A stretch of DNA of 64,000 nucleotides from Terriglobia bacterium (lineage in GTDB: Bacteria; Acidobacteriota; Terriglobia; Bryobacterales; Bryobacteraceae): the NCBI GenBank assembly GCA_020073305.1, contig JAIQFK010000009.1, forward strand, positions 1-64,000, written 5' to 3'. The notes beneath the pieces are model-generated. The model saw only the letters and a list, made by a program, of their open reading frames with translations, searched no databases and was not told the origin of the DNA. Within the stretch, counting starts at the first letter, position 1. Every line of letters starts with the position of its first letter. The position numbers were made by a program, and so were the translations under genes. Below, one piece after another: positions 11,636 to 29,902 of the stretch.

Positions 11636-12867
11636 GCTTCTCCCCTCAAGCGCGCTAGCGCTTCGCAAGTGGAAGTGCCCAGGTAATTCACATGCTCTTC
11701 GGTATAGCGCTCGTTCCAGGGCAGCACCAGCACCCGGTCAAGGGCTTCGAAGGTTCCCGGGAACAAGCTCGGATCGTAATTCAAGGCCTCCGGACGCGCC
11801 AGCGTGAATGGAAACTCGCTGCGGCCGAAAGTGCGGCGCTTCTGAAAAATCTCGCACTGGAACGCCGGCTTTTGAATGTAGCGCGGCATGGAAGCGATTC
11901 CTTTTTCCTTGAGCAGTTTTCCCAGAGCCGGCGAGCCGCCAGGCACCAGGTTCGGGTCTACGCGCAGGCAATACTTCCAGTAGGTGTGAGTCGCCTTGGA
12001 ATAAATGGTCGGCGTCTCAATCCCCGGCAAGTCACGGAGCTGCCGGGTAAGCTGGTCCGCGGCTTCGATGCGAGCCCGCACCACCCCCTCCAGCTTGGGC
12101 AGTTGGGCCACCATCACGGCTCCCTGCAACTCGCTCATCCGGTAATTCAGGGCCAGAAAATAATGGTCGGGCTTGGTATCGCCATAACCCCAGGCTTTGT
12201 TGATGAACAGGAACATGCGCCGCGCCAGGGCGCGGTTGTTGGTTGCTACCAGGCCACCCTCGCCGCAGGTGATATGCTTCCCCTGCTGCAGACTGAAACA
12301 CCCGATGTCGCCAATGGTGCCTACGTAGCGGCCATCGTACTCCGTCAGGAAGGACTGCGCGCAATCTTCGATCACAGGAATCCCGCGGCTGCGCGCCAAT
12401 GCCATGATCTCGTCCATCTCGCACGGGTTGCCGAAAAGATGCGTCACAATAATGGCCTTCGTGCGGGGGCTCAGGCAACGCTCGATGGCTTTCGCCGTGA
12501 TGTTGTAAGTCTTCGGATCCACATCGGCAAACACCGGAATGGCGCCCTGGTACAGGATCGGCGTCAGCGCGCCCATGTCGGTGATTCCCGAGGTGACGAT
12601 CTCGTCTCCCGGCTCCGGGTCGATCGCGGCGATGGCGGTGTGGAGCGCCGCCGTGCCCGAAGAACAGGCGTGGACGCTCGATACGCCGAGTTGTTGCGCA
12701 AACCGTTCCTCGAGCGTCTTCACGAACTGCCCTTTGGTACTGGTCAGCGTGCCCGTTCGGATGGCCTGTGCAAGCAGTTCGATTTCTTCTTCGCCTAGCG
12801 TGCGTCCGGAGGAGTCTTGGTCGGAGGGTAAAGGAATCGTCGGCGCCGACAACACAACAGGATTCAT
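11632..12867 (-). CDS. DegT/DnrJ/EryC1/StrS sugar aminotransferase (WbpE-like)
   Basis: A 411-residue PLP-dependent aminotransferase of nucleotide-sugar pathways. Motifs: SSGTAALHTAI (phosphate-binding), VIEDCAQS with D168, and FSLQQGKHITCGEGG in which K197 is the Schiff-base lysine. ATG 12867 overlaps the stop of the deacetylase-glycosyltransferase gene as ATGA; an AAGGA lies six to seven bases upstream. It likely makes a 3-amino (or similar) NDP-sugar from the keto product of the next gene. Length and motif order are normal for the family. The regiochemistry cannot be told from sequence. Confidence 0.9.
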   Translation of the reverse strand: MNPVVLSAPTIPLPSDQDSSGRTLGEEEIELLAQAIRTGTLTSTKGQFVKTLEERFAQQLGVSSVHACSSGTAALHTAIAAIDPEPGDEIVTSGITDMGALTPILYQGAIPVFADVDPKTYNITAKAIERCLSPRTKAIIVTHLFGNPCEMDEIMALARSRGIPVIEDCAQSFLTEYDGRYVGTIGDIGCFSLQQGKHITCGEGGLVATNNRALARRMFLFINKAWGYGDTKPDHYFLALNYRMSELQGAVMVAQLPKLEGVVRARIEAADQLTRQLRDLPGIETPTIYSKATHTYWKYCLRVDPNLVPGGSPALGKLLKEKGIASMPRYIQKPAFQCEIFQKRRTFGRSEFPFTLARPEALNYDPSLFPGTFEALDRVLVLPWNERYTEEHVNYLGTSTCEALARLRGEA

Positions 12868-14723
12868 GATAAGTCCTTATAATGTGAGATGAACATCAGA
12901 GAAACAGCTGAGCCAATCCGCACCAGAGTGCTGGCATCGACGTGCCGGCTTCGAAACAGCCGCAAGAGCAACAGCCGGGCCATTAGCGCGAGATGTCCGG
13001 CGGCGGCTTTGACCACTTTCATCTTCGAACGGCCGATCAACCGCACCTCCAGCGTCGCCGGATGCTCCACAATCTGGGCCCGCCGCAGGTCCAGCATTCC
13101 GAGCATCTCTGCCACCCCGATGAAGTGCCCGTTGCGAAGCTCCACGTCGCGCATGGCCGCTTTCCGATACACGCGAAAACAACTCGTGTACGTGTAGAGT
13201 TTCTGCCGCAGCACGCGTCGATAGAGGAAAGAAGAGACTTTGGACAGCCCCAACCGCCAGCCCGGCACATTTCTCACTTGCCCCAGCGGATGATAGGGTG
13301 AGGCCGTGACCATGTCGACCCCGGCCGCCAGCTTTGGAATCATCTCCTTCAATGCGTGAGGATCGTAGGTGCAGTCACAGTCGATGGAGCACACAATCTC
13401 GGTGTCGGCACTGCGGATCCCGGTCATGATGGCTGCGGCCACCCCGAGATTCCTCGGGTGCCTGACAATTTTGCAGTTCTCCCAGGAAGCAAAGAGGCTG
13501 TGTAACAGTTCCTGCGTCTGGTCGCTGCTGCCGTCATCCACAAACAGATAATTCAGTTTGTACTCGTCCAGGCTTTCTCTGACACTCCGCAGCGTGTTCG
13601 CCAGATAGGGGAGGATCCGCTCTTCGTTGTAGCACGGCACCACGACGGTCACCGCGGTCCGGGTCTCGGGCGAAGATTGCACGACGTAAGGAGTTGTAGC
13701 CTGCGCTTCTTTCGGTAGGGCTGCGGGAACCTGATCACCGGTAAGATCCAGGCCCATGTACTCCGCAATGCTCACGAAATGGTACGTACGAAAATACTCC
13801 TCCCAAACCCGCGCCATTTGGTCCAGGTTGCGATAGTGGCGGATCCGGGATAGCGCCGGTGCACCGTCGATGCGCACTTGCTCCGGATCCAGCTCCCAGA
13901 CGTGGAAGTACATCACCAAGGGTGAGGAGGTGTTCTGTGTCAACCGGTTGGCGAGCCGGCGCACCATTTTCGTTGGGAACTGGCGGATGTAATTGCCACC
14001 GGAGATCGGCAGGTTGCAGCCAAGAAAACGGTACGTGGTGATCGGAAACTCCCAGAGAATCTTGTCACCGTATTTATGTTGATGCACAAACCGGCGCCAG
14101 GGCTCGGAACGGAACGACCAGAAACTCGGAACCATGCTTGAGTCGTAAAGGTAGTTCTCTTCGGCAATCACGTCGAGAGCCCAGAGATCCTCCGGACCGA
14201 AACGCGTTTGAGGAATGCGGCAACCCACGACTTTTCGCCCCGTCGCCGTCTCCAGTGCGTCGCGGGAACGCGTGAGGTTGTCACGCAATTCCTCGGGCGA
14301 TGAGCCGCGAAAGCTGGTCGGGTAATAACCCTTGTTCGCCACCTCGTGGCCCCGCTTGGTCACTTCCCGAACAATGTCCGGCCGGCGATCCGCGATCCAC
14401 CCCAGCACGAAGAATGTGGCCCGGATGCCAAACCGGTCGAGCAGATCCAGAACCCGCAGAGTATTCCGTTCCAACCGCGTGTCAAAACGGGTCCACTGCT
14501 CACGGGGAATTAATTTTCGGAATGTCAGAACCTGGAAGTAATCTTCGAGCGAGATCGTCAAGACATGCCGGGTTTGCGCCGGGCTGACTAACTCTCTTGG
14601 CAAAGGCGCGCTGCTCAGCGAATCCATGAGTTTCAGATTGGTTTCAGTTGCCCGGCGAGCCTCGAACGGAGGAGGCAAGGCGGACTCTGCTTGGATGCTG
14701 GGCGGTGAAGAAAAATCCGTCAT
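12864..14723 (-). CDS. Exosortase-type polysaccharide deacetylase domain fused to GT2 glycosyltransferase; deacetylase metal site altered
   Basis: A 619-residue two-domain protein. Residues about 50-330 match the XrtA/PEP-CTERM-associated polysaccharide deacetylase layout: LTISLEDYFQV (E60/D61), TFFVLGWIADRRPDIV, and MYFHVWELDPEQ at 271-282. Where that family has a metal-binding HxxxH in its GHEVASHGYSH segment, this protein reads GHEVANKGYYP (125-135), so both histidines are replaced by K131 and P135. Residues 356 to the end form a GT2 domain: VVPCYNEER, VDDGSSD, IDCDCTYDP (DxD-like), plus a hydrophobic C-terminus. It heads the seven-gene minus-strand operon and is divergent from the YdcF-like gene. 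The GT2 half looks active; the deacetylase half may be inactive or use another site. Confidence 0.85.
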   Translation of the reverse strand: MTDFSSPPSIQAESALPPPFEARRATETNLKLMDSLSSAPLPRELVSPAQTRHVLTISLEDYFQVLTFRKLIPREQWTRFDTRLERNTLRVLDLLDRFGIRATFFVLGWIADRRPDIVREVTKRGHEVANKGYYPTSFRGSSPEELRDNLTRSRDALETATGRKVVGCRIPQTRFGPEDLWALDVIAEENYLYDSSMVPSFWSFRSEPWRRFVHQHKYGDKILWEFPITTYRFLGCNLPISGGNYIRQFPTKMVRRLANRLTQNTSSPLVMYFHVWELDPEQVRIDGAPALSRIRHYRNLDQMARVWEEYFRTYHFVSIAEYMGLDLTGDQVPAALPKEAQATTPYVVQSSPETRTAVTVVVPCYNEERILPYLANTLRSVRESLDEYKLNYLFVDDGSSDQTQELLHSLFASWENCKIVRHPRNLGVAAAIMTGIRSADTEIVCSIDCDCTYDPHALKEMIPKLAAGVDMVTASPYHPLGQVRNVPGWRLGLSKVSSFLYRRVLRQKLYTYTSCFRVYRKAAMRDVELRNGHFIGVAEMLGMLDLRRAQIVEHPATLEVRLIGRSKMKVVKAAAGHLALMARLLLLRLFRSRHVDASTLVRIGSAVSLMFISHYKDLS

Positions 14724-15845: not shown

Positions 15846-17333
15846 TTGTATTTAGTTCTTATCCTCGGTTGCACCTCATTTTTGCTCTCGCTTGTTCTCA
15901 CGCCGCTTGTTCGTGACTGCCTGGGACACCTCGGTTTTCTGGATCACCCGGATGGGATTCGAAAGAAGCATTCAGGACCGGTGCCTCGTGTGGGTGGCGT
16001 AGCCATCGCATTGTCGTACGCAACTACTTTCGCGATTGCCTTGGCCTTGCCTCTCAGGGACACCCGCATTCTGCACGAAGCACTGCCCGGCGTTGTAAAG
16101 CTCACTTTAGTTGCGTCGGTGGTCTTACTCACGGGCCTGGTCGACGATCTGGTCGGACTGACGGCATGGAAGAAACTGGCTGGAACCGGGGCAGCGGCGG
16201 TCCTCGCCTATTTCGCCGGAATACGGGTGGATTTGCACTTGTTCCCGGCTATCTCGGCGTACCCGTGGTTGGGATTTGCAGTAACGATCGCTTGGCTTGT
16301 GGGTTGCACGAATGCCTTCAATCTCATTGATGGCATGGATGGCCTGGCTTCGGGAGTGGGTCTGTTTGCCAGCATGACCGTGCTGGTGGCCGCACTCACG
16401 CAGCCCAACTTTCCGCTGGCCCTTGCGACCATACCCTTGGCGGGCTGCCTTCTCGGGTTCCTGCGGTACAACTTTAGCCCGGCGTCCGTTTTTCTGGGTG
16501 ATGGCGGCAGTCTGCTGATCGGGTTTCTTCTGGCATGCTACGGCACGGTCTGGAGTCAGAAATCGGTGACCTTGGTGGCCATGATGGCGCCTCTGTTGGC
16601 GGTCTCGATTCCCCTGGTCGACGTGACGCTCTCGATCCTGCGCCGGTATCTATGCAGACGGCCGATTTTCGAGGGTGACCGGGGACACATTCACCACAAG
16701 TTGTTGGACCGGGGTTTCAGCCCGAAGGGCGCGGTACTGGCGATGTATGGAGTGTGCTGCCTCGCAGCCATCGCCTCGTTACTGTTGAATGCCTACCATA
16801 ACGAATTTGGTGGCCTGATCATCGTCTTGCTCTGCGTACCTGCCTGGCTTGGCATCCAATACCTCGGATACACCGAGTTCGCAAACGCCGGTCGAATCCT
16901 CTTCAAAGGAGAGTTCCGGCGCATCATCGATGCAGAAACCCGGCTGCAACACTTCGAAGCTGCCTTGGCAAAGGCGGACAACGTAGGTGAATGTTGGACG
17001 CGAATTCTGGAGGGAAGCCGGGACTTCGGTTTTCAAGGCGTGCGCATGAGTGTTGCGGGGGCGGTTTTCGAGGAATCCAATGGCTGGACCAACCGGCCGG
17101 TGTGGCAGTTGCGGATTCCACTCGCCGAATCGCAGTACATCAATTTCGTCCGTGACTTTGAGGCACAACTGGATCCCTTTATCCTGAGTGCGTTCGTGAA
17201 CTGCGTAGAACGAGGCGTGAAGAAGTGCATCGCCGGTTACGAACCCGAGCTGGAGCGGATTGAAACCGCCCCGGCGCGTCTTGTCTACGCGGCTCGTGCG
17301 GTGAGCGATGCGGCTGCCAACGGCAGCATGTAA
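15846..17333 (+). CDS. WecA/MraY-type polyprenyl-phosphate sugar-1-phosphate transferase with soluble C-terminal extension
   Basis: A 495-residue protein. The first about 340 residues are a polytopic GT4 (MraY/WecA superfamily) module. It has GLVDDLVGL (the paired aspartates), NAFNLIDGMDGLASG, a hydrophobic GDGGSLLIGF segment and the HIHHKLL histidine motif. These enzymes prime polysaccharide synthesis by moving a HexNAc-1-phosphate from UDP-sugar to undecaprenyl phosphate. The remaining 150 residues are hydrophilic (FKGEFRRIIDAETRLQHFEAAL onward) and are not part of the core family. The start TTG 15846 has an AAGGAG about seven bases upstream, which supports it despite the rare codon. Likely the initiating enzyme of the pathway. 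Confidence 0.88.
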   Translation: MYLVLILGCTSFLLSLVLTPLVRDCLGHLGFLDHPDGIRKKHSGPVPRVGGVAIALSYATTFAIALALPLRDTRILHEALPGVVKLTLVASVVLLTGLVDDLVGLTAWKKLAGTGAAAVLAYFAGIRVDLHLFPAISAYPWLGFAVTIAWLVGCTNAFNLIDGMDGLASGVGLFASMTVLVAALTQPNFPLALATIPLAGCLLGFLRYNFSPASVFLGDGGSLLIGFLLACYGTVWSQKSVTLVAMMAPLLAVSIPLVDVTLSILRRYLCRRPIFEGDRGHIHHKLLDRGFSPKGAVLAMYGVCCLAAIASLLLNAYHNEFGGLIIVLLCVPAWLGIQYLGYTEFANAGRILFKGEFRRIIDAETRLQHFEAALAKADNVGECWTRILEGSRDFGFQGVRMSVAGAVFEESNGWTNRPVWQLRIPLAESQYINFVRDFEAQLDPFILSAFVNCVERGVKKCIAGYEPELERIETAPARLVYAARAVSDAAANGSM

Positions 17334-17335
17334 CG

Positions 17336-18229
17336 CTAGGGCTCCTTCTGCGCTCCGCGCTGCCGAAGGGCCGCCGACACCGCGGCCATTTCCGGGCCTG
17401 TCAGCAGCGATGGATCGCAGGTTGGAAGCCCTCGTTTGCACGCTTCCAGGTTGCGGCTCCGAAAGGCAGAACGGGCGGCGTTCCAATCCGTTTGGCTGAA
17501 AGCAATCGGGTCACAGTTGGCGAGTCCATTGCGGCAATTGGAGACGTTTCGCCTCTGATATTGTTCGCGGACTTCCTTCAGCTCGGATGACGTAAGCAGC
17601 CACGGATCGCAAGTGGACGAGCCGTCCAGGCAATAACTTCGATTCCGGCGCAGCTTCGCAACCCGAACCGACGCCGCCTCACTCGCAGACAACCGTGTTG
17701 GATCACACATGGGGGAGCCGCTGAGGCATCTATCCAAGTTCCGCCGGGCCGCTGCTTTCTCGACCACGCCGGCTTCCCCGGATGTGAGCCGGGTTGGGTC
17801 ACAGTTTGGAGCACCCGTCAGGCATCGATCATAGTTCCGACGTTGAGAGCCAGCCTGCACTTGGACCGCGTCTTCTTTCCTGAGCAGAGACGGGACGCAC
17901 AGTGCGGCGCCGAGGAGGCATTGATCCAGGTTCCGGCGGTATCGCGCAGCGTCCATGGCTGCCAGCTCAGCCGGGGCAAGGCGCGTGGGATCGCAGAAGG
18001 TGGAGCCGTTCAAGCAGTAATCCAGATTGCGTTTCTTGGCCGCCGCGGACACCTGGTTTAACTCCTCAAGATTCAGGGCAGAGACGTCACAACCCGGCAG
18101 TCCCCTCAGGCAGGTAATGGCATTGGACCGTTCCGGGGTAACCGTCTTTTGTGGCGGGAAGGGGGAAGCTGGGGCCGCCAGCCCCAGGAGACAGAAGAGT
18201 GCCAAGAGATGCCGAATGACAGTTCTCAT
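17336..18229 (-). CDS. Secreted protein of eight exact 32-residue Cys repeats
   Basis: I do not recognise a family. From ATG 18229 (with AAGGA about ten bases upstream; a TTG at 18247 would add six residues) it encodes 297 residues. A signal peptide (RTVIRHLLALFCLLGLAAPASPF) is followed by a short linker and eight consecutive repeats of exactly 32 residues, at 35-290, then a seven-residue tail. The consensus is RN-x3-C-x2-G-x3-C-D-P-x2-L-x3-E-x3-V-x-x-A-x2-R, so each repeat has one C-x6-C pair, 16 cysteines in all. Helical parts should alternate with disulfide-closed turns, giving a solenoid. It is convergent with the priming transferase (2-bp gap) and divergent from the first GT4 gene. Likely a periplasmic or surface protein of the polysaccharide system; inference. 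Confidence 0.75.
   Translation of the reverse strand: MRTVIRHLLALFCLLGLAAPASPFPPQKTVTPERSNAITCLRGLPGCDVSALNLEELNQVSAAAKKRNLDYCLNGSTFCDPTRLAPAELAAMDAARYRRNLDQCLLGAALCVPSLLRKEDAVQVQAGSQRRNYDRCLTGAPNCDPTRLTSGEAGVVEKAAARRNLDRCLSGSPMCDPTRLSASEAASVRVAKLRRNRSYCLDGSSTCDPWLLTSSELKEVREQYQRRNVSNCRNGLANCDPIAFSQTDWNAARSAFRSRNLEACKRGLPTCDPSLLTGPEMAAVSAALRQRGAQKEP
17360..18127 (-). repeat. Eight tandem 96-bp coding repeats
   Basis: The region encodes eight in-register 32-residue units (768 bp). DNA identity between units is moderate while the C-x6-C, G, DP and RN positions are nearly constant; only the first unit lacks the RN start (SN) and the DP (DV), and the third has VP in place of DP. This indicates old duplications under protein-level selection, not recent slippage. 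Confidence 0.8.
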
Positions 18230-18247
18230 GTGGTTATTTTCCTTCAA

Positions 18248-18376
18248 GATCCACGTTCTTTTTCAGTACTGGTACCGCACAATCCCGGCTCGACCTGGAA
18301 TTCGATTGACAATTGTCATGAGCCCAGATGACAATTGTCAGTAACTGCTCGGCATTCATCTGCTGGGAGCTGAGAA
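18248..18376. promoter_or_regulatory. Divergent regulatory region with two TGACAATTGTCA palindromes and one GTACTGGTAC site
   Basis: The region between the Cys-repeat gene (minus) and the first GT4 gene (plus). Two identical perfect 12-bp palindromes, TGACAATTGTCA, lie at 18307-18318 and 18329-18340, centre to centre 22 bp, that is two helical turns. A GTACTGGTACC near-palindrome is at 18266-18276. A TTGACA hexamer (18306-18311) is embedded in the first palindrome, but I see no matching -10. The arrangement is typical of a cooperatively bound repressor or activator dimer pair; the regulator is not identified. Confidence 0.65.
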
Positions 18377-19711
18377 GTGCTTTCCCGCTCCCAGTTAGGA
18401 ACACGAGAATGGGACCGAAAGGGCGGTAGCTTGCCGAAGGGTCTAAATTACAATCCACATACACTACCTGAGGGGTCAAGGGCAGCGCATAGGACCTCTC
18501 ACGAGGCACCCTCTCCCTGGGTACTGGTAGCGGCCGGGTTCCATCGCAAAGGCGGGATGGAGAAGGCGAATCTTGCGCTGGCTGAATATCTGCTGGAGCG
18601 GGATATCCCCGTACACGTCATAGCTCATGGAGTAGAGCCACACCTGGAGAAGCACCCTCTGGTGAAAGTGTACCTGATTCCACGTCCGCTGGGATCGTCC
18701 CTGCTAGGAGAATTTCCGCTGGCTTACCAGGGCCGAACGATTGTCCAAAAGGTGCTCAAGACTTGGCCGCGTGCGCAAGTGGTGGTAAACGGCGGTAACC
18801 TTGTGTGGCCCGGAATCAACTGGGCTCACTATGTGCATCACGCCTGGCCTGCCCCTCGAAACGGAGCTCCCTGGTTTTATCGGATCAAATCCGCCTTGGC
18901 GGATAGCCGGGCGAGAAGGACCGAAAGCGCCGCCTTCAAACGGGCACAACTCGTCATCGCGAACTCCGACCGAACCCGCCGCGAAATCATAGAATACTTC
19001 GGGATCGACGAACACCGCGTTCATACCGTTTACTTAGGCGCGGATTCGGAGTGGGGGCTGGTAACACTCGCCGAACGCGCTGCGAGCCGGCAGTCGTTGC
19101 AGGTCGGTCCATCCCGGACCGTGGCGGCCTTTGTGGGCGGCCTGGGATTTGACCATCGCAAGGGTTTCGATGTGCTTTTTCGAGCCTGGGAGCGACTCTG
19201 CGCCATGCCGGAATGGGACGCAGATCTTCTGGTCGCCGGCGGCGGACCGGCGCTGCCGATGTGGCGGACTGCCGTTCTGAAGTCCGGGTTGAATGAACGC
19301 ATTCGCCTGCTCGGATTCTCTGATCAGGTGAAGAGTGTCCTGGCGGGGATCGATCTGCTGGTGAGCCCCGTTCGCTATGAACCGTACGGACTGAATGTGC
19401 AAGAAGCGATCTGCCGCGGGATCCCGGCCCTGGTGTCGGCCTCGGCGGGGGTGGCCGAGCGTTATGAGCCTGACTTCGCCCCTATGCTGATTCGCGATCC
19501 AGAGGACGTCAGCGAGCTGGTTCAGCGGCTGCTCGCATGGAGATCAAAGAAAGAAGAATGGAAAGCGCGCTTCCAGCCGTTCGGCGACCGTCTGCGGAGT
19601 CGCAGCTGGCGCGATACCGCCGCCGACATGGTGTCGATTGTTCAACAGCAAGAACAGTGCCTGCAAGAGCAAGCCTACGTCCCCGTGCTTGCCACAAGCC
19701 ATCACTCATGA
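18377..19711 (+). CDS. GT4-family glycosyltransferase
   Basis: A 444-residue GT-B glycosyltransferase. The N-terminal domain starts with WVLVAAGFHRKGGMEKANLALAEYL (the glycine-rich donor/acceptor loop). The C-terminal half has AAFVGGLGFDHRKGFDVLFRAWE, then RLLGFSDQVKSVLAGIDLLVSPVRYEPYGLNVQEAICRGIPALVS, with the E-x7-E motif of GT4 enzymes. GTG 18377 has GGGAG about eight bases upstream; TTG 18431 is the only other usable start before the conserved domain. It is the first gene of the long plus-strand polysaccharide operon. Adds a sugar to the lipid-linked repeat unit; donor unknown. Confidence 0.88.
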   Translation: MLSRSQLGTREWDRKGGSLPKGLNYNPHTLPEGSRAAHRTSHEAPSPWVLVAAGFHRKGGMEKANLALAEYLLERDIPVHVIAHGVEPHLEKHPLVKVYLIPRPLGSSLLGEFPLAYQGRTIVQKVLKTWPRAQVVVNGGNLVWPGINWAHYVHHAWPAPRNGAPWFYRIKSALADSRARRTESAAFKRAQLVIANSDRTRREIIEYFGIDEHRVHTVYLGADSEWGLVTLAERAASRQSLQVGPSRTVAAFVGGLGFDHRKGFDVLFRAWERLCAMPEWDADLLVAGGGPALPMWRTAVLKSGLNERIRLLGFSDQVKSVLAGIDLLVSPVRYEPYGLNVQEAICRGIPALVSASAGVAERYEPDFAPMLIRDPEDVSELVQRLLAWRSKKEEWKARFQPFGDRLRSRSWRDTAADMVSIVQQQEQCLQEQAYVPVLATSHHS

Positions 19712-20186: not shown

Positions 20187-22472
20187 ATGGAAATCCGCTT
20201 GGTGAACGACGTTGACGACTCCAGTTCGCGGGACGCCGCGCGCGCGCCGCATTGGATTGCGGAGGGGGCTAACCAGGAGACTGGCACGTCCCTAGACATC
20301 GAGAATCTGGTTCGCAAATACTGGCTGCTGCTGGTGCTGCTGGTTTGCGTGGGGGCATTGGGCGGTGTGGCATCGGTGGTGCTCAGTTCACCGATGTATA
20401 AAGCTCGGTTGCTGCTGGAAGTGCAGAGTGTGAATGAAGCCTGGTTAAAGAACTCCATCGGTGGCATGAGCTTTGAAGCGAATGACGTGAACATTCAAAC
20501 GCAGATAAACATCCTCCAAGGCGGGTCCTTTGTAAAACGTGGGTCGGACCGGTTACAGCCCGACATCGTGCCGATGGCCCCCACCGGACGGGATCTTTTC
20601 TCCCGGTTGCGACAGCGGATCCGACCCGCAACCCAGGACCCCTTAGAGAGCAGCAGACGCAGCCTCAATATTGCGATGGCTACTTTTGATGCGCGGCCCG
20701 TGAACAAGACCCGGCTCATTGAACTGACCTGTGAATCGACGAGTCCCGACATTGCCGCGCAGTTCCTTAACGCCATGGCGGCCGAATTCGTGGAGGACAA
20801 CTCGCAATCCCGCATGCAAAGCTCGCAAAAAACGAGCGAATGGCTTTCCGCTCAAATTGAGGAGACGAAGTCGAAACTGCATGATCTCGAGGAGCGGCTG
20901 AGGGAGTTCGTGCAAGCTTCCGGGAACCTCTTTGTAGGGCCGGAATCTCCGACGTTGGCGGATACGGAGATGAGTCAGGCAAAGAGCAAACTGGCCGAGG
21001 TGCAGTCACTGCGCATTGCGGCGCAGACCCGGTACGAACTTTCGCTGAAAAACCCTCCGGAATCACTGGCTGAAGTGCAGAACGACGGAACATTGCATAG
21101 CTTTCAACAGCAGATCACGCACCTGAGGCAGGAGAGAGCGGCACTCACCACCACGTACACTCCCAAGCATGAGAAAGTGCAAAAGGTCGACGCCCAGATT
21201 GCACAGTTAGAGCAGGCCTATCAGCAACAGCGAGACGCGATCGTGAAAAAGATCCGGGACGATTACGAGGCCCTCTTGAAGTCCGAAAGGCGTCAAGCGG
21301 AGTACTATCACGAGAAATCGCAGTTGGTGAGCGCTGAGGCGGGCAAGGCCGCGCAATATAGCGCCCTGAAGCGCGAGGTTGAAACGCTGCGCGGGAGTTA
21401 TCAATCGCTGCTGATGCAGGCCAATCAAGCCGGGCTGGGCAGTTCTGTGCCGCTCAATCCAATCCGCATTGTAGAGCCGAGCAGCCCGCCAGCTGCGCCG
21501 TATAAGCCGCAGCCGCTGTTAAACATTTTGTTGGGAACGGTCCTAGGGTTGGCGGGGACTGCCGGCTTTGTGTTTCTGAAGGAGCGGATGGACCGCAGCG
21601 TCGGCGCGCCTGGAAGCCTGCGCAGCTTCCTGCAAACTCCGGAACTGGGGGTCATCCCGAACCTGAACCTGGTGGCCAATTCCGGCGCCAAGTTGCTGCC
21701 CGGCGCCCCGCTCGTTCCGGATAACGGCCATACCCTCTCCATCGCTGCGAAAGCGGGCGATGACGTGAGCCAAGCCTCTCTGGCCCTTTGGTCCAACGGT
21801 TCGTCTTTCATCGCGGAATCTTTCCGGGGAACTCTGGCCTCGATTTTGAGAGCTCAGGGGCAGGCAAAAACCCAAAGGGCCATTCTGATCACCAGTCCAG
21901 GGCCCGGCGAGGGGAAGACGACGGTCGTCCAGAATTTGGGAATCGCGCTGGCCGAAACCGGCCGCAAGATCCTCCTGGTGGACGCGGATTTTCGCCGCCC
22001 CCACCTGCACAAGAGGTTTCATCTCCCGAATGATCACAGCTTGATCGACCTCATTCGTGAGGAGAAGCCGCTCGCCGACTGCCCCGCGGAGTATTGGGGT
22101 CTGAGCACGGGGATGGCCGGCTTATCCGTGCTTCCGAATCGCCCGACGGATAACAATGTGGCGCGGGCCCTTTATTCCCCGAGATTGCGCGCCATCTTCC
22201 AAAGACTGCGGGAGATGTATGACATGGTGCTGGTGGATGCGCCTCCGGTCTTACACCTGGCGGATGCACGGATCGTGGCTCCCCTAACCGATGCTGCCAT
22301 TTTAGTTCTGCGCTCTGGAGTCACCGAGCGCAAGAGCGCGATGGAGGCTTTCCGGCGAATGCAGGAAGACGGTCTGTTCCTGCTCGGCACAGTTCTGACG
22401 GGGTGGGATGTATCGAATTCGTATCTCAAGCGGCACTACTACTATGACTACGCCGAGGGCGATCGGGAGTAG
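20187..22472 (+). CDS. Wzc-like polysaccharide co-polymerase / BY-kinase
   Basis: A 761-residue protein. A first membrane span (YWLLLVLLVCVGALGGVASVVL, about 47-68) is followed by a periplasmic Wzz domain, a long coiled-coil region (about 200-430) and a second span (LLNILLGTVLGLAGTAGFVFL). The cytoplasmic kinase domain has Walker A GPGEGKTT (572-579), Walker A' LLVDADFRRP around 596-605 and Walker B MVLVDAPPV. The C-terminus is a tyrosine cluster (Y746, Y751-753, Y755), the autophosphorylated tail of bacterial tyrosine kinases. It controls chain length and export of the polysaccharide. Length and domain order are those of fused Wzc/ExoP proteins. Confidence 0.92.
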   Translation: MEIRLVNDVDDSSSRDAARAPHWIAEGANQETGTSLDIENLVRKYWLLLVLLVCVGALGGVASVVLSSPMYKARLLLEVQSVNEAWLKNSIGGMSFEANDVNIQTQINILQGGSFVKRGSDRLQPDIVPMAPTGRDLFSRLRQRIRPATQDPLESSRRSLNIAMATFDARPVNKTRLIELTCESTSPDIAAQFLNAMAAEFVEDNSQSRMQSSQKTSEWLSAQIEETKSKLHDLEERLREFVQASGNLFVGPESPTLADTEMSQAKSKLAEVQSLRIAAQTRYELSLKNPPESLAEVQNDGTLHSFQQQITHLRQERAALTTTYTPKHEKVQKVDAQIAQLEQAYQQQRDAIVKKIRDDYEALLKSERRQAEYYHEKSQLVSAEAGKAAQYSALKREVETLRGSYQSLLMQANQAGLGSSVPLNPIRIVEPSSPPAAPYKPQPLLNILLGTVLGLAGTAGFVFLKERMDRSVGAPGSLRSFLQTPELGVIPNLNLVANSGAKLLPGAPLVPDNGHTLSIAAKAGDDVSQASLALWSNGSSFIAESFRGTLASILRAQGQAKTQRAILITSPGPGEGKTTVVQNLGIALAETGRKILLVDADFRRPHLHKRFHLPNDHSLIDLIREEKPLADCPAEYWGLSTGMAGLSVLPNRPTDNNVARALYSPRLRAIFQRLREMYDMVLVDAPPVLHLADARIVAPLTDAAILVLRSGVTERKSAMEAFRRMQEDGLFLLGTVLTGWDVSNSYLKRHYYYDYAEGDRE

Positions 22473-22499: not shown

Positions 22500-23336
22500 G
22501 TGTCCAAAACAGTTCAGGCCGTGGCCGTTGCTGTATTGCTTACGGCTGCCTTCTGGGCGATTCTGTCGAGCCTGTACGGGAGTTGGTTTGATGCATTCTC
22601 GTACATGGAGCACGGGATCCTGGTTTTCCCCGCGGCTGCCTACATGGTTTGGACGAAACGCGCCAAGCTGGTGCAAATTTCGCCGAAGCCCTCGATGTGG
22701 AGCCTTCCTTTGCTGGTGTGGGGCGCGGGGCAGGCAAGCCTCGGCACGGCGGCGCATTGGGTGTGGATCAGCAGGACGGCCTTGCTGGTTTCGCTGGTCG
22801 GATGCATCGCCGCGCTGTATGGGTGGGAAATGGTCCGCGAGCTGGCGTATCCGCTGGGAACCTTGATTCTGATGATCGCGCCTCCCACGTTTCTGTACGA
22901 ACGCCTGACCTTGGACCTGCAGTTGCTGGCGAGCCGAATCGGCGAGGGCTGTCTGGAAGCCCTGGGATACTCGGTCATGCGGGAAGGGAATATTCTGGAA
23001 CTGGTGGGAACGAAGTTATCCGTTGCGGAGGCTTGTAGCGGCATCCGTTCTTTGTTCTCCATCATGTTCATGTGTGTGCTGTACGACTTTTTTTTCGTAC
23101 GCGGCGCTGTCATGAGAACCCTGATCCTGGTAATGGCAGTCCCCATCGCCATCCTCGGCAATGTCGGCAGAATCGTCGCCACCGGCGTGGCCAGCCAATA
23201 CAACCAACAGTTGATTCATGGCATGGCCCATGAAGCGTTTGGGTACGTCAGCGTGGTTCTGGCGGGTATCGGCTGCATCACGCTGCACCTGGTGATGGTT
23301 TCCATCCGGAAGGCGTGGCACTCGCGCCATGCCTAG
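22500..23336 (+). CDS. Exosortase
   Basis: A 278-residue membrane protein with about eight spans. The catalytic triad of exosortases is visible: Cys179 in EACSGIRSLFS, Arg224 in ILGNVGRIVATG and His244 in GMAHEAFGYVSV. The family is a cysteine transpeptidase-like enzyme that processes C-terminal PEP-CTERM-type sorting signals and is nearly always linked to exopolysaccharide genes. The start is GTG 22500 with GAGG six bases upstream. Its stop overlaps the start of the EpsI gene by 8 bp. No protein in this window ends with a recognisable PEP-CTERM signal, so the substrates are elsewhere. The exact subtype (XrtA or another) cannot be fixed from motifs alone. Confidence 0.93.
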   Translation: MSKTVQAVAVAVLLTAAFWAILSSLYGSWFDAFSYMEHGILVFPAAAYMVWTKRAKLVQISPKPSMWSLPLLVWGAGQASLGTAAHWVWISRTALLVSLVGCIAALYGWEMVRELAYPLGTLILMIAPPTFLYERLTLDLQLLASRIGEGCLEALGYSVMREGNILELVGTKLSVAEACSGIRSLFSIMFMCVLYDFFFVRGAVMRTLILVMAVPIAILGNVGRIVATGVASQYNQQLIHGMAHEAFGYVSVVLAGIGCITLHLVMVSIRKAWHSRHA

Positions 23337-24006
23337 TACGATACAACCGCAAGGCTCCGGCCCCGGAGCCTTGTTCCTATTCGTGTGCTTGATCCTGATC
23401 CTTCAGGTGGCCGCGTCCCGCGCACTCTCCTTGCCTGAGCGCAACCTTCCCCTTCCCGAACTGCACAGCTTGCCGCTGGAAGTTGGCAGGTGGAAGGCGT
23501 TAGAGGAGCAGGCTCTGGAAGTTCAGGTAACGGAGTACTTGAGACCGGATGAATATATTCTCCGCAACTATGTGAATGCCGAGGCGGGCGGCTCCATCAA
23601 TCTGTTCGTGGCTTACTTCAAGTCGCTGCAGAACAGCTATGGCCCTCACTCGCCTCGTGTGTGCCTGCCCGGTGCAGGGTGGCTGACGCAATCATCGCGG
23701 ATCCGGGTGGTTGCCGTGCCGGGGCGAGCAGATGGCATCCCGACGAATGAATATGTGCTGGAGAAGTCTGGAACCAGCATTCTGGTGGTGTATTGGTACC
23801 AAAACGATCGGAATGTTTGGGCGGAAGAATTCCATGCCAAGTTAACCCTCTTGCCGGACCTGCTACGATACCGGCGATCCGATGTTTCTCTCGTCCGGTT
23901 GGTAACGCCGCTGGGTGGACGAGTGAACGACGCTTCGGCGAACTCGACCGAGTTCGTCAAGTCGGTTTTTCCATTGCTGGTTGAACGTTTCGAGGCTACC
24001 AGGTAG
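23329..24006 (+). CDS. epsI: EpsI family exosortase-associated protein
   Basis: A 225-residue protein with an N-terminal membrane anchor (GALFLFVCLILILQVAAS) and the EpsI/DUF3485 domain. The domain shows WKALEEQALEVQVTEYL, NLFVAYFKSLQNSYGPHSPRVCLPGAGW (hallmark HSP...CLPG) and VVYWYQNDRNVWAEEF. EpsI is encoded next to, or fused to, exosortases in polysaccharide loci and is thought to act with them in the periplasm. Here it is a separate gene overlapping the exosortase by 8 bp. The match is strong; the biochemical role in the family is not settled. Confidence 0.92.
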   Translation: MPSTIQPQGSGPGALFLFVCLILILQVAASRALSLPERNLPLPELHSLPLEVGRWKALEEQALEVQVTEYLRPDEYILRNYVNAEAGGSINLFVAYFKSLQNSYGPHSPRVCLPGAGWLTQSSRIRVVAVPGRADGIPTNEYVLEKSGTSILVVYWYQNDRNVWAEEFHAKLTLLPDLLRYRRSDVSLVRLVTPLGGRVNDASANSTEFVKSVFPLLVERFEATR

Positions 24007-25314: not shown

Positions 25315-26441
25315 GAGTTCTCCACATCAACGCCGGAAATGTGTACGGCGGCGTCGAAACGTTTCTCGTCACGCTGGCGAGAAATGCGCATCTTTGTCCC
25401 GGCATGAAGTCTTCCTTTGCTATTTGTTTTCCGGGCCGCTTCCGCGAAGAGTTGGTGGCCGCGGGCGCTCCCGTGCACTCGCTAGGCGCCGTGCGGACGA
25501 GGCGTTTCTGGAGCGTCTGGCAAGCACGCCGGCGGCTGCGTAAGCTCCTCGGCGATTTTGACGTGATCCTGTGCCACATGCCTTGGAATCATGCGGTCTT
25601 CGGGACAGCAGTCAAGCGAGCTGGGAAACCGTTGGTCTTTTGGCTGCATAATCCGGCCATTGGCTCGGGGTGGCTTGAATGGTGGGCGCGGCGGACAACT
25701 CCCGACCTGGTGATTGCGAACAGCCGGTTCACGGCTGCCTCCTTACCTCTCCTGTTCGCCCAAGTCCCGCACCGGATCATCCACTATCCGGTCGCGTCTC
25801 GAGAAGTCGTAGCAGCGGACGCGCTGGCGGTCCGGCAGGAGTTCGGCGCCTCCAGAGATACGGTCGTCATTGTCCAAGTCAGCCGGATGGAAGCCTGGAA
25901 GGGACACAGGCTGCACCTGCAGGCGCTCGCGGAATTGAAAGACCTACCGGGCTGGATGTGCTGGATGGTTGGGGGCGCACAGATGGATGGAGAGCCGGAG
26001 TATCTGAATGGCCTGAAGCAACAGGCGGTCCAGTTCGGCATTGCGGATCGTGTTCGTTTCCTTGGGCAGCGCGCCGACGTACCCCAGATTCTGGCGGCGT
26101 CTGATATCTTCTGCCAGCCCAATGCATCTCCTGAACCCTTCGGCATCGTTTTCATCGAAGCGCTCCAGACTGGACTTCCCGTGGTGGCCACCAGGAGCGG
26201 CGGCGCCGTTGAAATCCTCCAGGACGAAAGGTGTCTGGTCGAGCCGGGAGACCACCGCGCGCTGGCGGAACGCCTTCGGCATCTGGTGAAGTCTCCCGAG
26301 GAACGGCGGATCATGGGCCGCCGCGGGCCGGAGCGGGCCAGAAGCCTGTGCGATCCGGGCACACAAATGGACGAATTGCATCGAACCCTGAGTGATCTCG
26401 CGCGGGGTGCTGTCTCCATGCCAACGCTGAGTAACCACTAA
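25311..26441 (+). CDS. GT4-family glycosyltransferase
   Basis: A 376-residue GT-B enzyme. I start at ATG 25311, overlapping the previous stop, because the conserved VLHINAGNVYGGVETFLVTLA begins there; longer frames upstream are shadow. The C-terminal domain has IVQVSRMEAWKGH and SPEPFGIVFIEALQTGLPVVAT. The next gene begins within its stop codon (TAATG). Co-transcribed with the neighbours; sugar specificity unknown. Confidence 0.88.
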   Translation: MRVLHINAGNVYGGVETFLVTLARNAHLCPGMKSSFAICFPGRFREELVAAGAPVHSLGAVRTRRFWSVWQARRRLRKLLGDFDVILCHMPWNHAVFGTAVKRAGKPLVFWLHNPAIGSGWLEWWARRTTPDLVIANSRFTAASLPLLFAQVPHRIIHYPVASREVVAADALAVRQEFGASRDTVVIVQVSRMEAWKGHRLHLQALAELKDLPGWMCWMVGGAQMDGEPEYLNGLKQQAVQFGIADRVRFLGQRADVPQILAASDIFCQPNASPEPFGIVFIEALQTGLPVVATRSGGAVEILQDERCLVEPGDHRALAERLRHLVKSPEERRIMGRRGPERARSLCDPGTQMDELHRTLSDLARGAVSMPTLSNH

Positions 26442-27790
26442 TGGCCGCGATCCTGCTTTGTGTAGTTGCCTTGGCCGTTACTCTCTGGGCGACCAAGCGC
26501 TCGCTGGGCGCCGGAGTGCTGGCCGTGGCGGCCGTCGGCTACGCTTACGGAATCCTCCGCGCGAACCTGCAGCAGACTGCCTCCCACTTCATTTTTGATG
26601 CAAGTTTGACGGGGCTCTACCTGGCATACGGTTCGCGATTTTTCAAGCATGAGGATCGCGGCCGGAACTCGGCACTGCGCATCTGGACCGTGCTGCTCCT
26701 GGTGTGGCCCTGTCTGGTTTGTGTGCTACCTTTTCAACCTCTGATGGTTTCGATAGTGGGGTTGCGCGGCAACATCTTCTTCTTGCCCATTCTCGTGATC
26801 GGCAGCCGGCTGAAGGACAGAGATCTGCGGACCTTCACTTTCGGCATCGCGCTGCTGAATCTGGCGGCGCTTGGTTTTGGCATTGCCGAGTATTTTCGCG
26901 GGATCGAACCTTTCTTCCCCAGGAGCGCGGTGACCTCCATCATATATAACAGCGTGGATGTCGCGGGAGGCCACCATCGCATTCCAGCCCTGTTCACGGC
27001 CGCCCACGCCTATGCGGGCACCATGGTGTGCACCATGCCGTTCTTGTTCGGCGCTTGGGTGCAACGCGACTGGCGGAAACTCCCGCGAGTCATCCTCCTG
27101 CTGGGGATGGTGGCGGCGTTGTGCGGAGTCCTGATGGCGTCAACCAGACTGTATTTCGCGGTCGCGCTATACATTGTCGTCATCGCTACTCTGAGCAGCC
27201 GCATCAGCATGCAAAAGCGCATCCTGTGGATACTGGCGGTGATCGTACTCGGGGCTTTAGCTCTGAGCAACGAACGCTTTCAGCGCTTCAAAAGCCTGGG
27301 GGATTCGGAGATGGTGATGGACCGGATCGCGGGAAGCGTCAACCGGAGCTTTCTGGAGGTCCTGTTGGAATATCCGATGGGAAACGGGTTGGGCGGCGGC
27401 GGAACGAGCATGCCTTATTTCCTGCAGGGCGCGATTCGGAATCCGGTGGGAATCGAGAACGATTACGCCAGAATACTTGCCGAGCAAGGCATTATCGGGC
27501 TTTCTTTGTGGATCGGATTTGTGTTCTGGTGTGCCAGTCGCCGCACGGCTTTCTTGAAGCACCCTTGGTTAGCCGGCCGCCGCCTGATCTGGTATTGGTA
27601 TGTTCTCATGTTCATCTCCGCCGCTATCGGGCTAGGCATGTTGACGGCCATCCCCGGCACCTTTTTCTTTCTCCTTGCCATCGGTTGGACGACCACGGAG
27701 CCGGCAGCCGAAGCACCGGCACGATCGAAGGATCTCCGGAGATCGGGCAAAGCCCCTGCGCGGCCTGCAGCGCCGGTCTATGCCGGCTGA
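26441..27790 (+). CDS. O-antigen polymerase/ligase-like (Wzy/WaaL) membrane protein
   Basis: A 449-residue polytopic protein with about ten spans. A large periplasmic loop is rich in polar residues (EPFFPRSAVTSIIYNSVDVAGGHHRIPALFTAAHAYAG), and a second loop (YPMGNGLGGGGTSMPYF...IENDYARILAEQGIIGL) matches the Wzy_C layout of O-antigen ligases and polymerases. In this operon it is the most likely repeat-unit polymerase. Sequence conservation in the family is low, so polymerase versus ligase cannot be decided. The hydrophilic tail after about residue 415 has no recognisable motif. Confidence 0.8.
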   Translation: MAAILLCVVALAVTLWATKRSLGAGVLAVAAVGYAYGILRANLQQTASHFIFDASLTGLYLAYGSRFFKHEDRGRNSALRIWTVLLLVWPCLVCVLPFQPLMVSIVGLRGNIFFLPILVIGSRLKDRDLRTFTFGIALLNLAALGFGIAEYFRGIEPFFPRSAVTSIIYNSVDVAGGHHRIPALFTAAHAYAGTMVCTMPFLFGAWVQRDWRKLPRVILLLGMVAALCGVLMASTRLYFAVALYIVVIATLSSRISMQKRILWILAVIVLGALALSNERFQRFKSLGDSEMVMDRIAGSVNRSFLEVLLEYPMGNGLGGGGTSMPYFLQGAIRNPVGIENDYARILAEQGIIGLSLWIGFVFWCASRRTAFLKHPWLAGRRLIWYWYVLMFISAAIGLGMLTAIPGTFFFLLAIGWTTTEPAAEAPARSKDLRRSGKAPARPAAPVYAG

Positions 27791-28891: not shown

Positions 28892-29902
28892 ATGACAAAG
28901 AAAGCCTGCATTACTGGAATTACAGGTCAAGATGGAAGCTACCTTGCTGAATATTTGCTCGGTCTAGGTTACGAAGTGCATGGGCTCGTCCGGCGTGTCG
29001 CCCTGGAGCAGCCGGAGCAGCGGCTGAGCCGCTTGCGTCCGGTTCTGAAGCGCATACACCTCCATGCCGCCAACCTGGACAGCTATGCGAGCGTGTTCCA
29101 TGTTTGCAGCAGAAATGCATTCGATGAATGCTACCATCTGGCGGCGCAGAGCTTCGTAGCCGAGAGCTTCGCCGACGGATTCTCCACCATGGCGACCAAC
29201 ATCAACGGGACCCACTACATCCTGTCAGCCCTGCGCGAGTTGCAGCCGAACTGCAAATTCTACTTCGCCGGTTCGAGCGAAATGTTCGGCAAGGTGAAAG
29301 AGACGCCGCAGCGCGAAACCACTCCGTTCCATCCCCGCAGCCCGTACGGCATCAGTAAGGTCGCCGGTTTTCACCTGTCCATGAACTACCGCGAAGCGTA
29401 CGGCATGTACTGCTGCAACGGGATTTTGTTCAACCACGAGAGCCCACGCCGTGGCTACGAATTTGTAACCCGCAAGATATCCGACGGCGTAGCGCGCATC
29501 CAGGCCGGCTTGGCTTCGGAGCTGCGTCTGGGGAACCTGGAAGCGCGGCGGGATTGGGGGCATGCCCGAGATTATGTGCGCGCCATGCACCTCATGCTGC
29601 AACAGCCATCGCCGGACGATTACGTCATCGCTACCGGCGAGACACACAGCGTGCGGGAATTCTGTGAGCTGGCTTTCGCCGAGGCAGGTCTCGATTACCG
29701 TGAGTACGTCAAACAAGACGCCAGCGTCTATCGCCCGGCCGAGGTGGATCTGTTGTGGGGCGATAGTTCGAAGGCTCGTGCCGTATTGCAGTGGCAGCCC
29801 ACCGGCAGCTTCACGGACTTAGTCACGGAGATGGTGCAGGCGGACCTGCAACTGCATCTGCCTGCCCGGAACGCGGATTTGGCGGCTGTTCAACCGGATT
29901 GA
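28892..29902 (+). CDS. GDP-mannose 4,6-dehydratase-like SDR
   Basis: A 336-residue extended SDR. It opens with the coenzyme motif GITGQDGSYLAEYLL, has VHGLVRR (the NADP-binding arginines) and SSEMFGKVKETPQRETTPFHPRSPYGISKVAG with the YxxxK catalytic pair. The ILFNHESPRRGYEFVTRKI segment is typical of Gmd. The loop after RR reads VALEQPEQRL where E. coli-type Gmd proteins carry SSSFNT, so this is a variant branch. It would convert GDP-mannose to GDP-4-keto-6-deoxymannose, a precursor of fucose, rhamnose and related sugars. The start ATG 28892 is clear; the start codon of the next gene overlaps its stop as TGATG. Confidence 0.85.
   Translation: MTKKACITGITGQDGSYLAEYLLGLGYEVHGLVRRVALEQPEQRLSRLRPVLKRIHLHAANLDSYASVFHVCSRNAFDECYHLAAQSFVAESFADGFSTMATNINGTHYILSALRELQPNCKFYFAGSSEMFGKVKETPQRETTPFHPRSPYGISKVAGFHLSMNYREAYGMYCCNGILFNHESPRRGYEFVTRKISDGVARIQAGLASELRLGNLEARRDWGHARDYVRAMHLMLQQPSPDDYVIATGETHSVREFCELAFAEAGLDYREYVKQDASVYRPAEVDLLWGDSSKARAVLQWQPTGSFTDLVTEMVQADLQLHLPARNADLAAVQPD

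Follow-up and report, generated by a model that had tools for sequence, protein, structure and literature searches.

The cited part of the 2006 description of PEP-CTERM/EpsH systems (PMC1569441) deals with PEP-CTERM proteins, EpsH, EpsI, and PrsK/R/T, and no repeat protein of the kind described below is among them. PrsT (TIGR02917) is presented there as an extracytoplasmic helical repeat protein of PEP-CTERM/EpsH genomes, and this TPR protein is suggested as an adaptor in such systems (PMC1569441, part cited). A second described system that bears comparison is that of the Hcp proteins, in which consecutive repeats are tied end to start by a disulfide (PMC3851747, part cited). Here, we analyzed a stretch of 64,000 nucleotides from a Terriglobia bacterium (the window), in which the gene of a probably exported repeat protein lies beside an exosortase locus. 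The association of the repeat gene with this locus is well supported and apparently new.

Table 1. Features of the repeat gene, the adjoining intergenic segment, and the polysaccharide locus (positions in the window)
Feature	Position	Strand	Evidence or remark
Polysaccharide deacetylase fused to GT2	12864..14723	(-)	TIGR03006 262 bits, cut-off 276.2
WecA-like sugar-phosphate transferase, convergent neighbor of repeat gene	15846..17333	(+)	PF00953
Repeat-protein CDS	17336..18229	(-)	297 aa; ATG start at 18229; AAGGA at 18240-18244, 10 nt upstream
Repeat array of residues 35-290: eight 32-residue units, each with C6-x6-C13	17360..18127	(-)	
Probable signal peptide, about residues 1-23	18161..18229	(-)	Read from sequence
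CAGTACTGGTAC element	18264..18275		Four related loci of genus g41 conserve AGTACT at about -41/-42
Palindrome TGACAATTGTCA, copy 1	18307..18318		
Palindrome TGACAATTGTCA, copy 2	18329..18340		22 bp from copy 1
GT4-type glycosyltransferase at the head of the divergent operon	18377..19711	(+)	True start probably downstream of ops-like element
JUMPstart/ops-like element GGGACCGAAAGGGCGGTAGCTTG, leader of polysaccharide operon	18411..18433	(+)	RF01707 20.6 bits, gathering score 35
Chain-length determinant/tyrosine autokinase type	20187..22472	(+)	GNVR, AAA_31; Wzz 21.2 bits, below cut-off
Exosortase	22500..23336	(+)	PF09721; TIGR02602 160 bits, cut-off 105.55
EpsI-type exosortase-associated protein	23329..24006	(+)	TIGR02914, PF11984
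Wzy-like polymerase/ligase	26441..27790	(+)	PF04932, 29.1 bits, cut-off 31.7, just missed
Wzx-like flippase	29791..31494	(+)	PF13440

The N terminus of the repeat protein is hydrophobic and by eye resembles a Sec signal peptide. The units that follow are contiguous and in register, with no insertion or deletion across residues 35 to 290. N2, C6, G9, and C13 are present in all eight units and R1, D14, P15, and L18 in seven, while position 22 is E in six units and D in the remaining two. Sixteen cysteines make up the unit pairs, and one more lies in the N terminus. The protein thus carries the N2-x3-C6-x2-G9-x3-C13 pattern at period 32 by which we recognize the family. Autocorrelation at period 32 gives 91 matches (39 being the maximum reached in 10,000 shuffles over periods 20 to 44), and a DNA pattern for two adjacent units found 7 of 7 such pairs and had no match in 100 shuffled versions of the window. 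Mean pairwise identity between units is low (39% in protein, 47% in DNA). Taken together, these values indicate that the repeat is real, old, and diverged; Tandem Repeats Finder detected no array at the gene. The translation and the period-32 signal bear out the eight in-register 32-residue units with C-x6-C of the initial annotation, and its signal peptide is probable. Its word "exact" holds for length and register and fails for sequence. The protein ends in LRQRGAQKEP without the hydrophobic C-terminal stretch of a PEP-CTERM substrate, and our tail scan for PEP-CTERM-like ends did not pick it. It has no membrane anchor and no recognized catalytic signature.

Searches of Pfam, NCBIfam, PHROGs, and PDB sequences returned no credible match to the repeat protein or to its unit. 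With the Pfam threshold raised to E 10, a setting at which HMMER filters still drop most matches above E about 0.1, only PRY (E 0.075) was reported, with no Sel1 (PF08238) or TPR match, and NCBIfam gave no TPR match. The unit is outside the Sel1 length range (36 to 38 residues), and it has neither the 34 residues nor the profile match of a TPR. Two kinds of candidate were rejected: (i) two PHROGs families of unknown function had summed E values of 6e-4 and 4e-3, yet no single stretch passed E 1, and (ii) the profile of the repeat had a summed E value of 1.3e-5 over the TAL-effector chain 3ugm, yet no single stretch passes E 10. The unit belongs to no curated family searched, and the family is uncurated, so that the statement that no named family has this unit stands for the Pfam, NCBIfam, and PDB-sequence libraries. 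Within the open-access literature, we found no description of a 32-residue C-x6-C unit, alone or beside exosortases.

A four-unit AlphaFold2 model (mean pLDDT 89.7, pTM 0.71, from an alignment of four rows taken from the window and contig L117 only) has inner helices of 20 to 21 residues and joining loops of 11 to 12 residues, with C6 close to the end of the helix, G9 immediately behind, and C13 in the loop. The full-length mature protein gives the same pattern with nine helices (pLDDT 87.1, pTM 0.53); because of this low pTM and an alignment of two rows, its overall curvature is tentative. The helices and C-x6-C loops expected by the initial annotation are thus what structure prediction returned, with one helix per unit in both models. 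Matches to structural libraries are weak throughout. Foldseek found nothing at an E value of ≤0.001 in the PDB (best E 1.7 for the four-unit model and 0.27 for the full-length model) or, with the four-unit model, in a viral library (best E 0.85). The best VIA match, to the Rickettsia Sca2 repeat domain (4j7o), has a Z score of 4.7 and an rmsd of 7.3 over 121 residues (Z 4.4 to the same entry in a second run), and a Z score around 4.7 is a common level for helical repeats in VIA. Such matches may be read neither as proof nor as exclusion of a new fold. A C6-C13 disulfide in each unit is likely, because the cysteine pairing is perfect in a probably exported protein.

A single-sequence search found only the protein itself, both in its own genome and among 41 genomes including its own; relatives come up only with two-unit profiles, first A1 and later A3, which has 20 rows. 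With the two-unit profile, relatives occur in 20 of 237 genomes of the window's bacterial family and, with the second profile, in 7 of 386 genomes of a phylum-wide sample, the window's genome being counted in both. In a first phylum sample, two of nine first-profile matches (G121 and G138) were dismissed on reading, which leaves 7 of 396. Presence is patchy, and two genomes of the same genus lack the protein. In 26 family proteins, the unit spacing is exactly 32 in 173 of 177 cases (three are 31 and one is 33) with no skipped unit, and in 25 of the 26 every unit, beginning with the first, contributes exactly two cysteines. The exception is G465, where a stray match in the signal peptide was miscounted as a ninth unit beside the eight true ones. 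The pattern behind these counts already demands both cysteines; independent evidence comes from the lack of skipped units and of leftover cysteines. Among 14 eight-unit proteins, units at the same position are more alike (0.44 identical) than units at different positions (0.36), and units 1 and 8 are the most distinct, which fits a cap role at the ends. In the repeat-protein tree, six of the seven rows from outside the window's bacterial family, together with G470 from within it, are set apart from the rest (100/99); the remaining outside row, G276, stands by itself on a very long branch and groups with none of the other outside rows.

Beyond the phylum, our coverage consisted of plasmid records (PLSDB), phage records, and viral contigs. 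A tblastn search (E 0.01) matched 2 of 72,556 plasmid records, one from Janthinobacterium and one from Cupriavidus. The Janthinobacterium plasmid (NZ_CP132340.1, positions 224481-225512; L120:11917-12948) encodes a 344-aa, seven-unit member with an extra C-terminal stretch, at a position for which the incomplete gene table of PLSDB lists no gene. This stretch (ENGSCYGDIS...RPKTTHVSGYTRRDGTYVRGHYRSK) is similar to the C terminus of the G276 protein, a region in which both proteins lack Pfam and NCBIfam matches. The Cupriavidus plasmid (NZ_CP038639.1; L121:7917-8849) encodes a hypothetical protein with a related, longer C-x7-C unit (GKYPSLC...LLT), possibly a sister repeat family. None of 50,697 phage records matched the repeat family. 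One of four pattern matches in viral contigs encodes a member, at the edge of an IMG/VR contig (L117:13512-14297, minus strand), where it is possibly a host gene beside an integrated phage.

Domain matches confirm that the repeat gene lies next to an exosortase-type polysaccharide locus and is divergent from its first glycosyltransferase, as had been annotated. With a PF09721/TIGR02602 exosortase followed by EpsI, the locus is of the EpsH kind; the exosortase scores 143.9 bits against TIGR03109 (cut-off 208) and is not of the XrtA subtype. It is the sole PF09721 match at an E value of ≤1e-10 in its genome. This genome (G000) has three PEP-CTERM matches, and a genome of the same genus (G001) has 22 and no repeat protein. 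Elsewhere in the window (44394-46628, minus strand), a 744-aa, probably secreted protein has by eye two N-terminal dockerin-like calcium-loop stretches and a CSDCH heme-type motif; it matches no Pfam family at an E value of ≤1e-5 and no NCBIfam family at an E value of ≤0.001.

Our analysis shows that the linkage extends through the window's bacterial family, as the initial annotation had expected of exosortase loci in related bacteria. An exosortase lies 22 to 10,281 bp from the repeat gene in 14 of the 20 carriers and 9 of the 11 genera (for G465, this is an incomplete frame where a contig ends, identified solely through its BLAST cluster), with gene order changing among the linked loci across the nine genera. 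From genome size and copy number, 0.17 linked cases would be expected (P about 1e-25 for random placement, kinship ignored); the carriers are related and the 14 cases are not independent. Because exosortases occur in 216 of the 237 family genomes, co-occurrence alone is meaningless, and gene order is the evidence. By the same count, with the repeat protein in only 20 of these genomes, exosortase systems do not need it. Carriers have a mean of 2.3 exosortases versus 1.49 in the 194 noncarriers with at least one, a hand-transcribed comparison that leaves out exosortase-free noncarriers and is not relied on.

Six carriers have no exosortase nearby (G458, G463, G470, G521, G532, and G597). In all of these except G597, the repeat gene is 243 to 4,608 bp from a contig end on at least one side, and the exosortases of G458 were placed only among the matches listed. 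The assembly of G597 has the repeat gene and no exosortase match. Of the same six, G597 has a UDP-GlcNAc 2-epimerase gene near the repeat gene, G521 a polysaccharide-export gene just downstream of it, and G458 and G532 a TPR gene in the locus; the G470 protein is of the outside type in the repeat-protein tree.

Neighbors were clustered over up to 20 kb around 25 relatives and over window positions 7000 to 44500 (26 loci), where genes in fetched loci were called as the longest nonoverlapping reading frames, without a gene finder. Apart from the repeat family, EpsI-like proteins recur most often (12 loci), followed by exosortases (11), TPR proteins (8), glycosyltransferases (7), and Wzz/kinase proteins (7). 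Four TPR neighbors were scanned, and each scored best with PrsT (TIGR02917), below the cut-off. These large proteins near the repeat gene (L083:10421-12727 and those of L076, L080, and L084) have 226 to 289 bits for a cut-off of 312 and may, judging by these scores, form a divergent PrsT group. PEP-CTERM-like tails occur near the repeat gene in G481, G584, G585, G591, G638, and G639 and less clearly in G463. In L070, L076, and L078, several PEP-CTERM-like proteins with very similar tails (PEPGFYGALALGLSGL...RRR) surround the repeat gene and the exosortase. UpxY-type antiterminators are encoded beside the repeat gene in G584 and G639, and their BLAST cluster is present in five loci. In the cited part of PMC7593976, UpxY proteins activate their resident capsule operons in Bacteroides.

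The linkage could mean that the repeat protein is a partner of the exosortase/EpsI enzyme, that is, an adaptor presenting or escorting sorted proteins. In its favor, the repeat gene directly adjoins the exosortase (22 to 119 bp) in G584, G585, G591, G639, and, counting the partial frame, G465. Likewise, the top 11 matches to a profile of linked exosortases are all in carriers, although ten of them are rows of the profile or nearly identical to one, and only the G595 exosortase, absent from the profile and recovered by it 10.3 kb from the repeat gene, is independent. The exosortase tree places ten linked exosortases in a single group (80/91), separate from 26 others, which were drawn from the best 30 PF09721 matches rather than at random (a motif filter dropped L094, L104, L112, and L115; the placement of L070, cut from an overlong frame, is meaningless; and L082 was omitted as partial). 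However, the next-ranked profile matches are in genomes without a repeat-protein match (G480 and G624), the exosortases of G591 and G639 rank among ordinary ones in the profile search, G597 keeps the repeat protein with no exosortase match, and the window's genome offers a single exosortase only three PEP-CTERM matches. We consider an adaptor of this kind unlikely.

The segment between the repeat gene and the polysaccharide operon is itself conserved. JUMPstart elements carry the ops site for RfaH-type antiterminators. The candidate element here is below the gathering score, as is everything else in the window in Rfam. It is overlapped by GGGACCGAAAGGGCGGTAGC, which occurs once in the genome even with two mismatches allowed, and the 12-mer TGACAATTGTCA has only its two copies in the whole 7-Mb assembly. 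The TGACANNTGTCA boxes and the ops-like element are also found between repeat gene and operon in G052, G621, G622, and G623; hence, in five genomes of two genera, the repeat gene is divergent from a polysaccharide operon across a conserved segment (for G621 and G622, the intergenic position assumes a later ATG, as the longest frame runs across the elements). Ten TGACANNTGTCA sites were found in the 463,945 bases examined, nine in the shared segment and the tenth just past the G639 repeat gene, and the full element pair is absent from the other 15 family carriers. In G521, GGCGGTAGC lies between the repeat gene and the polysaccharide-export gene. The bare 10-mer GACAATTGTC has one copy in each of the fetched loci of G126 and G521, lying about 1.2 kb and about 50 bp, respectively, beyond the repeat gene, and neither was accepted as a full TGACANNTGTCA box. 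From the shared segment, we infer coregulation of the repeat gene with the polysaccharide operon.

Members outside the window's bacterial family have another setting. No exosortase/EpsI cluster member is present in the fetched flanks of G126, G400, G300, G324, G276, and G443 (for G400, 1.4 kb on one side). Thus, the linkage that had been annotated holds within the window's family and fails, as regards the exosortase, for these six, though two of them are near sugar genes: in G300, a glycosyltransferase lies about 1 kb from the repeat gene with a GH130 phosphorylase adjoining it, and in G276, GDP-mannose dehydratase and epimerase genes lie about 4 to 6 kb away. Outside members may have a looser tie to surface sugars. 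Given these outside settings, the unit seems to be a general building block, and the tie to the exosortase seems to be a property of the window's subfamily. It might even be argued that the protein is a general secreted repeat, e.g., a binding protein or an inhibitor, and only happens to lie in a polysaccharide island in a single bacterial family. Of the twenty outside neighbors scanned, most have no relation to polysaccharides (chaperonin, trimethylamine methyltransferase, fatty-acid desaturase, thiolase, TPR regulator, RNase II, HTH, and HEAT proteins), and these mixed contexts, like the patchiness within the window's genus, are what such a protein would show. Linkage over nine genera despite shifting gene order, a nearly genome-unique intergenic segment shared with the polysaccharide operon, and the sugar genes of G300 and G276 speak against it and make it distinctly unlikely. 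That C-x6-C serves a metal-binding or thiol-redox protein, with copper or another soft metal as ligand, is very unlikely: the full member on the Janthinobacterium plasmid does lie amid copper-resistance genes (copper oxidase, CopC, CopD, and CueR), but this is a single case, no copper or metal-resistance gene is among the scanned neighbors of other members (a manganese catalase gene is near the G521 copy), the unit has no conserved His or Met (M is second to L at position 7 and H second to R at position 31), and C-x6-C is not, to our knowledge, a usual copper motif.

The reading we prefer is that the repeat protein is an extracytoplasmic scaffold of an exosortase-type polysaccharide module, located in the periplasm or the matrix; the rigid-rod anatomy and the parallels with the Hcp disulfide and the PrsT adaptor led us to it, and for both role and location we would call the case evenly balanced. 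It draws on the repeat anatomy, the family, the linkage, and the shared intergenic segment as observed, and on the helix-loop fold as predicted. The gene product would be an exported, soluble alpha-helical repeat rod, each unit of which would form a helix of about 20 to 21 residues and then an 11- to 12-residue loop closed by the C6-C13 disulfide. G9 would sit at the turn, and D14-P15...L18-T/S19 would lead into the next helix, so that eight units might build a rigid rod with the first and last as specialized caps. In the window's bacterial family, such a protein would be accessory to one exopolysaccharide module of the exosortase/EpsI, Wzx/Wzy type, and there are two plausible ways in which it might act. 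(i) It may serve in the periplasm as a platform for assembly or export, a role also proposed for AlgK and PrsT-like TPR proteins. (ii) It may act in the matrix as a cross-linked rod and hold the secreted polymer there. The fuller proposal, that an undescribed, disulfide-locked architecture with one helix per unit provides the dedicated, coregulated rigid scaffold of a distinct exosortase-type exopolysaccharide system, is put forward tentatively.

The protein is probably an overlooked structural part of a system that makes a sugar coat. As a candidate accessory of exosortase/exopolysaccharide systems, it would add to their nonenzymatic parts, which are poorly known, and the linkage, the common intergenic segment, and the patchy pairing across genera make its role directly testable by deletion. 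It also brings to light an extracytoplasmic repeat family that is uncurated and whose simple, strictly spaced, and apparently disulfide-locked unit would suit structure work and design.

Compared with known systems, the window locus resembles the PEP-CTERM/exosortase (EpsH/EpsI) loci in that it encodes an exosortase and EpsI among Wzx/Wzy-type genes. TAL-effector repeats have 34 residues and two helices and bind DNA; a likeness of the helix start (C-x4-LTPxQ-like, noted by eye) is taken as convergence of this motif. With PrsT, the protein would share extracytoplasmic helical repeats, and TPR proteins are also present in 8 of the 26 repeat-gene loci, whereas TPR units have 34 residues without cysteine pairs and the window protein has no TPR match. 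The protein has a likeness in style to the Sel1-like Hcp proteins of Helicobacter, which are secreted helical solenoids of short repeats. However, Sel1 repeats have 36 to 38 residues and two helices each, whereas the unit described here has 32 residues and, in the models, one long helix. The HcpB structure 1KLX, named in the cited part of PMC3851747, is absent from the eight PDB profile matches up to E 10 in the copy searched, which may or may not include it. The repeat protein is in the style of the disulfide-tethered Sel1 (Hcp) solenoids and is not a member of that group.
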